Part shown: piece by piece, positions 11,586-59,695 of the stretch | How the letters are laid out: every line of letters starts with the position of its first letter | Position numbering within the stretch: the first letter of the stretch is position 1 | Assembly: GCF_004006665.1 (NCBI RefSeq) | Contig: NZ_QOCL01000014.1 | Location: 186,001-250,000, forward strand | Direction: 5' to 3' | DNA length: 64,000 bases | DNA from: Halobacteriovorax sp. HLS | GTDB lineage: Bacteria; Bdellovibrionota; Bacteriovoracia; Bacteriovoracales; Bacteriovoracaceae | Position numbers and translations under genes: made by a program | The notes under the pieces: generated by a model | Told to the model about the DNA's origin: nothing | The model's input: only the letters and a program-made list of their open reading frames with translations | The model's database searches: none

Positions 11586-12590
11586 TTAGAGCTCATCAAA
11601 GATGGATTCAGTTGAAGGTATCTCAATTTCCGAGTTAATACTCATGAAGCGTTTTATCGCCCTCGAAATGGAGATTGGAGAATGTGGGTCAAAGGTTTCA
11701 ATAGGCTTGACTACATCTCTTACGTAGTCCATTTCACTTGCAATTATTGGAAGATTAAAATGTTTTGCTTCAAGTAATGGGAGCCCAAAAGACTCCATAA
11801 GAGACGGGTATATCAGAGCTTCTGATTTTGTATAAAGCTTGAAAATATCTTCTCTTTTAATGTCGTGAATAACTTTAATATTTAATTTATTTGCGGAAGA
11901 GGCTTCTTTGATTTGATCTGAAAGTTTTCCTTTATTTATAACTAGTGTTAATGACGGAGTTATGCCTTCATTAGCTAGTTCCTTCCACGCTGCAATGAGG
12001 TTTTTGTGGTTCTTGTGTTTTTCATCTGAGGCAATATAAAGGAAGCCTTGGTCTTTATCTGCCGTGGTATTTCTATCTATAATCTTCGGAAGAAACGGAA
12101 ATGTTTTTACATTGAAATCATTTCCCTGGTTTTTAAAAAAAGCTACTTTCATTGTACTTGTTTGCACAAGATACAAGTAATCTTTTGATTTTCTAAGTTC
12201 AAACCAAATCTTTTCAATAGACATTCTGATTACACTTTGAAAACTATCCCGGCAAATGAATTTAGGACTAATCAGATACTTATTTTGAAGGTAGATTGTT
12301 GTTTTTATTTTAGATTTAAATAATGGGGGAAGGTTTCCAAAACAAAACAGTGAATCGAACTTTTTTGATATTTTTTTTAACTTTCTCTCTGCAAAAAGTC
12401 TTGATAAGAAACTATTCTTTACTCTTAAGGTTTTAATCTTTTCTGTTTCTTGAATAGATATGTCTAGGCGGTCATCTAAAAAGATAAAAAACTCATATTC
12501 TTTAGGAAGAGAAGAGAGAAGTTCCCTAAGTAGAACTTTTCCACCACCACTGTGAATATTATAGGCCGAAATAATTATTCTCTTTTCCAT
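11586..12590 (-). CDS. Glycosyltransferase family 4 (GT-B)
   Basis: A 334-residue GT-B enzyme. SGGGKVLLRELL is the N-terminal glycine-rich loop. KHKNHKNLIAAW and EALIYPSLMESFGLPLLE form the C-terminal donor site, with the E-x7-E motif in ESFGLPLLE. It probably adds a sugar during repeat-unit assembly on the inner face of the membrane. There is no clear ribosome site. A promoter-like pair ends nine bases before the ATG, so the leader may be very short. Confidence 0.85.
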   Translation of the reverse strand: MEKRIIISAYNIHSGGGKVLLRELLSSLPKEYEFFIFLDDRLDISIQETEKIKTLRVKNSFLSRLFAERKLKKISKKFDSLFCFGNLPPLFKSKIKTTIYLQNKYLISPKFICRDSFQSVIRMSIEKIWFELRKSKDYLYLVQTSTMKVAFFKNQGNDFNVKTFPFLPKIIDRNTTADKDQGFLYIASDEKHKNHKNLIAAWKELANEGITPSLTLVINKGKLSDQIKEASSANKLNIKVIHDIKREDIFKLYTKSEALIYPSLMESFGLPLLEAKHFNLPIIASEMDYVRDVVKPIETFDPHSPISISRAIKRFMSINSEIEIPSTESIFDEL

Positions 12591-12599
12591 ACAGATTTA

Positions 12600-12628
12600 A
12601 TAGTATGTCTCATTACTATGTTTGTCAT
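12600..12628 (-). promoter_or_regulatory. Possible promoter for the 12590 minus-strand glycosyltransferase gene
   Basis: On the minus strand ATGACA (12628-12623), 17 bases, then TACTAT (12605-12600). The ATG is nine bases further on, and no Shine-Dalgarno site is visible. Confidence 0.3.
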
Positions 12629-12643
12629 TAGCGAAGATTATAT

Positions 12644-55527: not shown

Positions 55528-56070
55528 TTAATCCAATTCCATTTCTAAGAGAATATTTTGAATATGTGCTTTTGCACGCTCTGGGTTCGAGTCAATATTT
55601 ACTAAGGCATCGATTAATAAGACCCTTAAGCGTTGTTCATCTAATTCACTTTGTACGGCCCTAGCTTCAAAAATAGGTTCTTGTGAAGCACACATTTCAG
55701 CAGTGCTATCACTACTCATATTCTTTGATCTTGCCATATGTATACAGGAAGCTGTTTCTGAGGAGGCATTGAAACAAGCCTCCGTCGTTGCATCAGAGCT
55801 CATATACTTCGCTCTCGCCATACTTATACATGAAGCAGAGCTACTAGTTGCGCTGGAGCAGACTTCAGCAGTCGCGTCACTGGACATATTCTTTGCTCGG
55901 GCCATGCTTATACAGCTTGCAGTGTGTTTATTTGCAAATTTACATACCTCTGAGGTTGCAGAGCTGGACATATTCTTAGAGCGGGCCATACTTATACAAG
56001 ATGCTTTGTAGTTTGCCGCTTGAATACTTAAGCTCATCATAGTTAATAGTACAATTGATAGTGCTTTCAT
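55528..56070 (-). CDS. Secreted four-repeat cysteine protein, unrecognised
   Basis: A 180-residue protein I do not recognise by name. It has a signal peptide (residues 1-18, MKALSIVLLTMMSLSIQA, cleavage near Ala18/Ala19). Residues 23 to about 129 form four repeats of exactly 28 residues, each starting ASCI-MAR-K-MSS and holding two Cys 18 apart (25/43, 53/71, 81/99, 109/127). An acidic helical tail (about 130-180) follows. The Cys pairs suggest one disulfide per repeat in the periplasm or outside. GGAG lies about eight bases before the ATG. It is flanked by terminators, so it is an independent unit. A binding or envelope role is possible but unproved. Confidence 0.85.
   Translation of the reverse strand: MKALSIVLLTMMSLSIQAANYKASCISMARSKNMSSSATSEVCKFANKHTASCISMARAKNMSSDATAEVCSSATSSSASCISMARAKYMSSDATTEACFNASSETASCIHMARSKNMSSDSTAEMCASQEPIFEARAVQSELDEQRLRVLLIDALVNIDSNPERAKAHIQNILLEMELD
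55684..56004 (-). repeat. 84-base tandem coding repeat, four copies
   Basis: Copies begin at 56004, 55920, 55836 and 55752 on the minus strand; the last is cut off near 55684. The 84-base period is exact, with no insertions between copies, and each encodes 28 residues. Copies differ by scattered substitutions. Confidence 0.85.
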
Positions 56071-56959: not shown

Positions 56960-56981
56960 GCGCCCTTGTTAATGAGGGCGC
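56960..56981. terminator. Bidirectional terminator after the CBS gene
   Basis: GCGCCCT (56960-56966) and AGGGCGC (56975-56981), 7-bp GC-rich stem with an 8-base loop, between convergent stops at 56953 and 56986. AT-rich sequence flanks both sides. Confidence 0.8.
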
Positions 56982-56985
56982 ATAT

Positions 56986-57750
56986 TTAATCAATCCTTCT
57001 TTGTCGTTCTAGATCTTTTAATTTAGAGTATTTTAAAAGAGCAGATAGCGCATTTATAGAGCAAATTACGAATCCATATCTACCATCTAAAAAACCTCTT
57101 TTTAAGAGATAGTCTTTGAAAAATTTAAGAAGTGGTCTTGTAATAATTTTGAAATTACTAGAGCGAGTACCATTTTTAAAGGCAGCTTTTGCTGCAATGG
57201 TTGTAAACTTATTTGTTTGGTTTACATGATCAGTAATTGAGTCATAACTATAGTGCAAAATATTTCCATTTAGTTTTTGGATACTAGAGGATTCCATCAT
57301 TTGAACTTTGTCATGAGGGTTAAGTCCGCTCCATACACCTTTTGTTTTATCAAAGAGACGAAGCTTTCTATCTGGATACCAGCCACAATGGTAAATCCAT
57401 TGGTCTACGTAGTGAGTTAGTCGGTTGAAATAGTAGCCATCTTGATTGAAGGTACTTTTAACTTTTAAAATACTTTGTTCTAGTTCCTGATCAATTGCTT
57501 CATCAGCGTCTAAAGATAGAACGTGATTATACGCGGCCTTCTGAAGTGCGAAGTTTTTTTGCTCAATATGTCCTTCAAAAGGGTTTTGTATCCAGTTTAC
57601 ATTGTATCTTCTACAGATTTCTTCTGTTTTATCGGTTGAGTAAGAATCAACAACTATGATCTCGTCAGCAACTGATTGAACTGACTTTAGGCATCTTTCG
57701 ATATTATGTTCTTCATTAAATGTGATAATTACTACTGAAAGCTTGATCAT
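56986..57750 (-). CDS. WaaE/KdtX-like LPS core glycosyltransferase (GT2)
   Basis: About 254 residues. LSVVIITFNEEHNIERCLKS, IIVVDSYSTDKTEEI, GHIEQKNFALQKA and VLSLDADEAID (DxD) with HCGWYPDRKLRLF are the WaaE/KdtX signature, beta-1,4-glucosyltransferases of the LPS inner core. The ATG at 57750 begins on the motif. The frame runs 16 residues further upstream into the promoter region. No Shine-Dalgarno is seen, and a perfect -10 ends six bases before the ATG, so the mRNA may be leaderless. It is divergent from the heptosyltransferase gene. Confidence 0.87.
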   Translation of the reverse strand: MIKLSVVIITFNEEHNIERCLKSVQSVADEIIVVDSYSTDKTEEICRRYNVNWIQNPFEGHIEQKNFALQKAAYNHVLSLDADEAIDQELEQSILKVKSTFNQDGYYFNRLTHYVDQWIYHCGWYPDRKLRLFDKTKGVWSGLNPHDKVQMMESSSIQKLNGNILHYSYDSITDHVNQTNKFTTIAAKAAFKNGTRSSNFKIITRPLLKFFKDYLLKRGFLDGRYGFVICSINALSALLKYSKLKDLERQRRID

Positions 57751-57756
57751 GGAGTT

Positions 57757-57785
57757 ATTATATCTTCCTAATTTCTTTTTGTTAA
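57757..57785 (-). promoter_or_regulatory. Leaderless-type promoter of the WaaE-like gene
   Basis: On the minus strand TTAACA (57785-57780), 17 bases, TATAAT (57762-57757), then six bases to the ATG at 57750. Its -35 shares the palindrome TGTTAACA (57780-57787) with the divergent promoter. Confidence 0.65.
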
Positions 57786-57810
57786 CACATTGTTGCAATT
57801 TAGTTATAAT
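57782..57810 (+). promoter_or_regulatory. Leaderless-type promoter of the heptosyltransferase gene
   Basis: TTAACA (57782-57787), 17 bases, TATAAT (57805-57810), then six bases to the ATG at 57817. No Shine-Dalgarno. The predicted start of transcription falls on or beside the ATG. Confidence 0.65.
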
Positions 57811-57816
57811 TATAGA

Positions 57817-58818
57817 ATGTCATATAAAACAATATTAGTCGTTAAGAACCGTGCTATGGGTGATTCTGTAATGGGTCTTTCGACTTTACAATATATTAAA
57901 GAATTGTACCCAAGTGCTAAAATTATATATGCACTTCCTTTGTGGATAACAAGACTTTATAAAAATGTTGATATTGCTAGCGATGAAGTCATTAGTTGTG
58001 ACTTGAAGAATGCTAAAGATTGGTTGGCACTTTTTAAGAAAATGCGAAAAATAAAGCCTGACGTTATCTTTGAGATGCAACAAGGTGGCAGAACAAAGAA
58101 ATTTTTTGGAACATACTCAAAGATATTTGGTATTCCATATTTCTTTCATAATCATCATATTTCATCAGGTGGTAATATTCATGATCAAGGTGTAATTAAG
58201 GCAGTCATTCAAAGGGATTTAGATGGAGCCTTTTCAACACTATCTCATAAAGAGAGATATCCGAGTTACTTGCACTATACTCCGAAAGTGAGTTTTTCAA
58301 GAAAATACAAGAAAAGAGTTATATTAGGAGTCGTGGCAACACGACAAACTAAAATGTGGTCCTTAAGTAAGTATGTTGATTTATGTAAATTGATTAAGAG
58401 AGATTTTCCTTGTCTTAATATTGTGATTCCTCTTTCTAAATCTTCAGGAGATATGGAAATATCAAAGGAGCTCACTGCTTTAGGAATATCTTCGATTGCA
58501 AATCTTGAATATGTAGAACTTGAAAACCTATTTGAATATATTGGAAACTCTAAGCTCTATATTGGTAACGATACAGGTTTAAAGCATATAGCAATTGCTG
58601 CAGGCATAAAGAGTTATACATTCTTTGGGCCAGAGCCTCCTAATGAGTGGCATCCATATAATGAAAAAGATCATCCTTACTTTTATAAAGAAGGACTAGA
58701 TTGCAGAACTGAACATGCACATTATTGTGGTCTGTCAGTATGTGAGAGTATGATTTGTTTGAATGAGTTTAGGCCGGAGGATATCTACCAAGTAATTAAA
58801 AAGGATCTAGATGACTAA
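57817..58818 (+). CDS. Heptosyltransferase-like glycosyltransferase family 9
   Basis: About 333 residues. VVKNRAMGDSVMGLSTLQYI is the GT9 N-terminal loop, GVVATRQTKMWSLSKYVDLC starts the second half, and YIGNDTGLKHIAIAAGIKSYTFFG carries the ADP-heptose site (ND-TG-H-A). It probably adds heptose to the LPS inner core with the WaaE-like neighbour. I start at the ATG at 57817, which opens on the motif; nine upstream codons overlap the promoter. It overlaps the next gene by eight bases. Confidence 0.88.
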   Translation: MSYKTILVVKNRAMGDSVMGLSTLQYIKELYPSAKIIYALPLWITRLYKNVDIASDEVISCDLKNAKDWLALFKKMRKIKPDVIFEMQQGGRTKKFFGTYSKIFGIPYFFHNHHISSGGNIHDQGVIKAVIQRDLDGAFSTLSHKERYPSYLHYTPKVSFSRKYKKRVILGVVATRQTKMWSLSKYVDLCKLIKRDFPCLNIVIPLSKSSGDMEISKELTALGISSIANLEYVELENLFEYIGNSKLYIGNDTGLKHIAIAAGIKSYTFFGPEPPNEWHPYNEKDHPYFYKEGLDCRTEHAHYCGLSVCESMICLNEFRPEDIYQVIKKDLDD

Positions 58819-59695
58819 ACTAATTTCAGGAATAACTTTTATTAAAAATGGGCTTACTCTTGGTTACCCAATAAAAGAGAGTATTGAAAGTATTGATACT
58901 CTATGCGACGAAGTTATCATCAATGTCGGGTTCGACGATGAAGCCCTGACTCAGGATGATGGTACTTGGGACTACCTTAATAAGAACTTTAAAGGAGAGA
59001 AGTATATTTTTTTAAAGAGCTTTTGGGACCCTGAAAAGACATCGAAGGGTTTAATTCTTTCTGAGCAAACCAATATTGCACTTGAAAAAGCGAGTGGAAA
59101 ATACTGTCAATATATACAAGGTGATGAGTGCCTTCATGAAGACGATATAGAATTAATAAAAGCAGAAGTTTTAAAAATGGAGCATGATAAGAGCTATAAC
59201 GGACTTGTCTTTAATTATATTCATTTTTATGGAAATGTTAATGTTCATAAAGTAACTAAGAAAACATATAGGCGAGAACTTAGACTTATTAGAAACCACT
59301 TAGGAATTAAATCTTGGCTTGATGCTCAGGGGTTTCGAAATCAAGATGATTCGAAAGTTGTTTGTAAGCAAATTGATGCTAGAGTTTATCACTATGGATG
59401 GGCGAGGGCTGAGCAAGTAATGGCCAAGAAAACAGTTGCTTTTGACAAGCTCTACCACGGTGAAAAGAAAGAAGGGCAAGTATTCTCTTATGAAAGAGTT
59501 TGGGGGCTGAGACCATTTTTGAAAACTCATCCAAAGGTAATGAAGTCATGGATAGAGGAAAATAGAAATGATCTAGATATTCTCTCTCTTCCGTATAAAC
59601 TGAATTTCAAAGACTTACGTCTTATTTTGAGTGATAAATTTGAATATATGACAGGCATAAGACTTGGAGAGTTCAAAAACTTTATCTTAAAGTAA
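58811..59695 (+). CDS. GT2-like glycosyltransferase (unusual form)
   Basis: A 294-residue protein. SGITFIKNGLTLGYPIKESI and DEVIINVGFDDEALTQ resemble the start of GT-A enzymes, and YCQYIQGDECLHEDD has an acidic motif in the place of DxD. The middle (YNGLVFNYIHFYGNVNVHKV, RLIRNHLGIKSWLDAQGF) is like poorly characterised glycosyltransferases. It is coupled to the heptosyltransferase gene by overlap, so an LPS-core or related role is likely. Donor unknown. Confidence 0.72.
   Translation: MTKLISGITFIKNGLTLGYPIKESIESIDTLCDEVIINVGFDDEALTQDDGTWDYLNKNFKGEKYIFLKSFWDPEKTSKGLILSEQTNIALEKASGKYCQYIQGDECLHEDDIELIKAEVLKMEHDKSYNGLVFNYIHFYGNVNVHKVTKKTYRRELRLIRNHLGIKSWLDAQGFRNQDDSKVVCKQIDARVYHYGWARAEQVMAKKTVAFDKLYHGEKKEGQVFSYERVWGLRPFLKTHPKVMKSWIEENRNDLDILSLPYKLNFKDLRLILSDKFEYMTGIRLGEFKNFILK

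Follow-up and report, generated by a model that had tools for sequence, protein, structure and literature searches.

Two apparently leaderless, divergent glycosyltransferase genes of Halobacteriovorax diverge from promoters that look to share a palindromic -35 element

In the window, a stretch of 64,000 nucleotides from the marine predatory bacterium Halobacteriovorax sp. HLS, two glycosyltransferase genes lie head to head. The leftward gene (56986-57750, minus strand), which is WaaE-like and is called waaE below, belongs to glycosyltransferase family 2 (Pfam PF00535, E 4e-21), and the rightward gene (57817-58818, plus strand), called hept, is a heptosyltransferase-like member of glycosyltransferase family 9 (PF01075, E 6e-13). 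A closer naming as WaaE and WaaC/F is not supported, as the NCBIfam scores of both genes fall below the curated cut-offs. waaE is predicted to be monocistronic, and its unit closes with a terminator-like stem-loop just 3' of the gene (56960-56981, listed on the minus strand but terminator-like on both), beyond which lies a convergent CBS-domain gene. The rightward unit continues from hept into a second cistron (58811-59695, plus strand), whose start overlaps the hept stop by 8 nt. The product of this ORF gave no match in Pfam and a weak match to a WaaE-like profile (E 3.8e-5, at G000:C14:245045-245410), and the ORF is conserved beside hept in the genus. Elsewhere in the window there is a second compact divergent gene pair, with a 53-bp gap between the first ATGs (12590-12643), and a gene for a small predicted secreted protein with internal repeats (CISMARAKNMSSDATAEVC) and without a Pfam match (55528-56070, minus strand).

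The intergenic region between the two start codons spans 66 bp (57751-57816), and its sequence can be read as two core promoters and nothing else, with a composition of 6+6+17+8+17+6+6. At its centre is the palindrome TGTTAACA (57780-57787), a putative shared -35 that presents TTAACA to each strand. On the plus strand, TTAACA (57782-57787) is followed after 17 nt by the hept -10, TATAAT (57805-57810), and after 6 nt more by the ATG at 57817; on the minus strand, TTAACA (57785-57780) is followed after 17 nt by the waaE -10, TATAAT (57762-57757), and after 6 nt by the ATG at 57750-57748. Read along the plus strand alone, the layout is ATTATA (57757-57762), N17, TGTTAACA, N17 and TATAAT, and the two -35 hexamers overlap by 4 bp (57782-57785). 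The original prediction had described this arrangement of palindrome, 17-base spacers, TATAAT boxes and six bases to each ATG, and every letter and distance in it proved correct. Both strands carry the TTGACA-like and TATAAT-like hexamers and the 16-18 bp spacer expected of a sigma70-type promoter, and in a consensus scan of 14 kb both promoters scored 11/12 and ranked within the top four of 38 promoter-like sites. Within the window the complete double pattern is found a single time, and shuffled sequences never contain it.

The same layout recurs in related species. In G001 and G004 the gap again measures 66 bp exactly, the two spacers are each 17 nt long and both -10 boxes stand 6 nt from the ATG, despite a sequence identity of 70-83% over the region. 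In the three-species alignment, all 8 columns of the octamer are kept and each -10 retains five of its 6 positions, while none of the six discriminator positions on the waaE side is conserved; the octamer is also kept in a further species, G002. The waaE -10 reads TATGAT at the same place in G001 and G004 and TAAGAT at 5 nt in G002, and the hept -10 reads TATACT at the same place in G001 and G004, TATAAT in G002 and TATACT at 7 nt in G003. When the start codons (CAT/ATG) and TANNNT on both sides were required, the layout was found in three of 369 genomes of the phylum, all at this locus and in the same genus, and the reversed control of the double pattern gave no match in the 369 genomes; among them, no double promoter was found outside the three species of the genus. 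An extra match in G003 from a relaxed search lacked the start codons and was absent from the stricter one. One half of the layout, TTAACA-N17-TATAAT-N6-ATG with at most one mismatch, had 8 matches in five whole genomes of the genus, 7 of them at this locus. On this sequence evidence the double-promoter arrangement is not due to chance, and we consider it probable that it represents two functional promoters placed back to back on a common -35.

Across much of the family, a divergent and adjacent pair of waaE-like and hept genes is common, with start-to-start gaps from 12 to about 90 nt. Gaps of no more than 12-40 nt are frequent in the other genera, where many of the loci have no visible leaderless -10, so the double-promoter arrangement is specific to the genus. 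In some genera (e.g., loci L131, L049 and L142) the gaps go down to 12-16 nt, and the promoters must sit inside the opposite gene. Over 38 loci from the family and its near relatives, the genus included, TANNNT stands 6 or 7 nt before hept in 13, with a background of ~1.6 per position.

Conservation in the three species is wider than the -35 hexamers. A core of 25 bp, TTCTTTTTGTTAACACATTGTTGCA (57773-57797), is invariant in all three and almost invariant on the hept side of G002, and the unchanged run extends 7 and 10 bp past the shared octamer. This core may therefore bind something besides sigma, judging from its width. It could act as a local operator or, possibly, as an upstream AT element for hept. 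One alternative to a purely promoter-based explanation is that the core is an operator overlapping the -35 and controlling both genes, for instance through a response regulator on an 11-bp direct repeat (TGTTAACACAT/TGTTGCAATTT), with the palindrome kept for the protein as much as for sigma. The 25 consecutive invariant columns favor this, as does G002, in which hept retains the T-tract and spacer although waaE there no longer uses them. However, no second copy of the core was found in any of four genomes, even with as many as 3 mismatches allowed across 22 bases of it, and a multi-site regulon is unlikely because the core occurs only at this locus. The looser direct repeat was no commoner than its reversed control, and the block is absent at hept in G003. 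We regard an operator of this kind as doubtful, but the width of the core also counts against a purely promoter-based account.

The distance between each -10 and its ATG bears on whether the transcripts carry leaders. In Deinococcus-Thermus, leaderless genes are marked by a -10 about 6-7 bp before the start codon (PMC12340547), and leaderless genes with an ORF-adjacent -10 have also been described in Mycobacterium (PMC3898074). Both genes at this locus resemble these in having the -10 close to the ORF, at 6 nt, and in lacking a Shine-Dalgarno (SD) sequence at normal spacing. The original prediction stated that neither side has an SD, and this holds in practice; taken literally it fails on the waaE side, where an AGGA lies upstream of the ATG (AGGAAGATATAATAACTCC-ATG), but it is too far away and is not conserved. 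In four species, an unrelated SDR gene retains the 6-nt spacing, although the six bases differ among the species. An lhgO-like gene taken for the same ortholog check occurs in G000 and G002 alone.

The 6-nt position also stands out across the genome. In samples of about 10% of two genomes, taken as stretches and analysed with mechanical ORF calls that include some wrong starts, a strong -10 precedes the first ATG by exactly 6 nt in 13 of 385 genes in G000 (p about 2e-5) and in 19 of 348 in G001 (p about 3e-10), with ~3 expected per position and the 5- and 7-nt positions at or below background. The signature is found in about 3-5% of the ORFs in these samples and is sharp to the base. Only one of 32 genes with a -10 at 6 nt has an SD-like motif, compared with about 45% of all genes, a contrast that is partly mechanical since a -10 at 6 nt takes the place of the SD. 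Because the 6-nt -10 fits both the published leaderless signature (PMC12340547; PMC3160421) and this genome-wide peak, leaderless starts are the best reading for both genes and are well supported by the sequences; the prediction that both are leaderless thus gains support from conservation between species as well as from a genome-wide class.

It could also be that the -10 boxes close to the two start codons are unused and that both genes are made with leaders or N-terminal extensions, through promoters that lie within the opposite gene or through in-frame starts further upstream. There are upstream in-frame TTG codons for both ORFs, and with gaps of 12-40 nt the hept leaders of other genera probably overlap waaE. 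Nevertheless, a TGA stop interrupts the extension of waaE in G001, a longer in-frame start for hept is unlikely, and the homologues of both proteins begin at the proposed methionine. Neither side has an SD. Moreover, conservation covers the -10 boxes and their spacing but not the neighboring bases, and we find leaders or extensions improbable at this locus.

Two genomes of the genus have the genes separated. In G002, a crcB-like (fluoride channel) gene has come to lie between waaE and hept (L004:1809-2168, minus strand). Its hept retains TTTCTTTTTGTTAACACAATGTTACATTTTAGT-TATAAT-AAACCT-ATG, which is TTAACA-17-TATAAT-6-ATG, and its waaE has TTAACA-17-TAAGAT-5-ATG with a -35 of its own. In G003 the two genes are 3.4 kb apart, with TTAACA-17-TATACT-7-ATG at hept, and a TATAGT 8 nt from the ATG with a poor -35 at waaE. 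As the divergent pair is found in other genera too, head-to-head genes look like the ancestral state, and the arrangements in G002 and G003 like insertions. In the separated genes a -10 still lies 5-8 nt from the ATG, which suggests that the common -35 is dispensable; together with the 13 of 38 loci that have a near-ATG -10 at hept, they also suggest that leaderlessness outlasts the common -35.

These separated genes also help in judging whether just one promoter of the pair works, with the other arising as a by-product of a palindromic, AT-rich sequence. The spacer is conserved at 8 of 17 positions on the waaE side and at 13 of 17 on the hept side, and hept alone keeps the block in G002, both of which would fit a single promoter serving hept. 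Against this, the waaE -10 keeps its five of six positions between unconserved neighbors, with exact distances of 17 and 6 nt in three species, and waaE has a TTAACA-17-TAAGAT promoter where it stands apart in G002. Furthermore, no other promoter is visible for waaE, which is not part of a co-directional operon. There is accordingly little likelihood, in our estimation, that one of the pair is a by-product, and two working promoters remain our preferred reading.

We propose that a pair of housekeeping-type (sigma70-like) promoters uses the two strands of one palindromic -35. With a near-consensus -10 ending 6 nt before each ATG, transcription would begin at the A of that codon, and the waaE mRNA and the hept mRNA, the latter with its downstream gene, would both be leaderless and would be translated by the leaderless route. 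Two polymerases that each cover about -55 to +20 would have about 44 bp in common, which should make simultaneous binding impossible, so polymerase would occupy one direction at a time and the promoters would fire in alternation, under mild and symmetric competition. This competition would tend to keep two glycosyltransferases of LPS-core type in balance, rather than making them exclusive. Promoter activity, the exact start sites, and the competition and its size are inferred here.

The expected extent of competition can be gauged with a simple model, in which the rate of one of two constitutive promoters is k1/(1+(k1+k2)t), where k1 and k2 are association rates and t is the clearance time; a symmetric partner then at most halves the output. 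The five E. coli bidirectional promoters that were examined competed only under strong activation of one direction (PMC12825309). With both promoters near consensus, the present pair may compete more than is typical in E. coli, and a balancing effect on the two genes is possible. A stronger version, in which the palindromic -35 and the 25-bp core, maintained while three species diverged, are a selected device, we think unlikely. Here a single landing site for sigma-4 would force a choice of direction and so couple the rates of the two leaderless glycosyltransferase genes of LPS-core type, possibly with tuning by a protein on the core.

The locus can be compared with other overlapping promoters. 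As in the bidirectional promoters of E. coli (Warman et al., PMC12825309), symmetry lets one element serve both directions, and opposing polymerases, which cannot bind together there, would be expected on steric grounds to exclude each other here. The E. coli promoters described by Warman, Grainger and coworkers have a common -10 and starts 10, 18 or 23 bp apart, whereas this locus has a common -35, two separate -10 boxes and predicted starts 67 bp apart and back to back, and it therefore falls outside that type. Like the CR/M promoters of EcoRV (PMC5333194) and the Pc/Pr promoters of pLS20 (PMC4207663), it is a divergent pair with overlapping polymerase sites, and C-protein restriction-modification systems (AhdI) also have leaderless transcripts. 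However, the EcoRV and pLS20 pairs include the gene of a regulator that flips the balance, and here both genes are, by Pfam, glycosyltransferases, enzymes of one kind of pathway, with no evident regulator.

The original prediction went further and held that the common -35 ties the two genes into exclusive expression; such a switch is very improbable, for although two holoenzymes could not use one -35 together, near-consensus promoters could be highly occupied and overlapping divergent promoters do serve as switches in pLS20 and EcoRV (PMC4207663; PMC5333194), those switches need a balance-tipping regulator with opposite effects on the two directions and neither gene here is a regulator, constitutive promoters would fire alternately so that both genes are expressed and equal ones would cost each other at most half, the five E. 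coli promoters show no competition at basal activity (PMC12825309), and the separated pairs persist in G002 and G003 without a common -35. Alternate firing under competition, not exclusivity, is thus what we expect of this promoter pair.

Leaderless genes are known from many bacteria, and overlapping divergent promoters from restriction-modification systems and plasmids; what appears to be new here is the placing of two putatively leaderless promoters on one palindromic -35. The leaderless genes of Deinococcus-Thermus and Mycobacterium differ from this case, in which two divergent genes are concerned at once and share a strong -35. In a limited literature search we found no description of a -35 common to divergent promoters or of two leaderless promoters with a palindromic -35, nor a start-site map for Halobacteriovorax. 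The locus offers a clean natural example of the smallest layout for two complete sigma70-type promoters of divergent leaderless genes, and the separated versions in G002 and G003 are its natural controls. It could be used to measure the competition of polymerases at a common -35, which studies of shared -10 elements do not cover.

More broadly, Halobacteriovorax appears to have a class of leaderless genes that makes up a few per cent of its genes. In 2011, Bdellovibrio-like bacteria were still classed in the delta-proteobacteria. According to a survey from that year, 8 of 33 delta-proteobacterial genomes contain leaderless genes (PMC3160421). A leaderless class in Halobacteriovorax matters for the annotation of start codons and for studies of leaderless translation in predatory bacteria.
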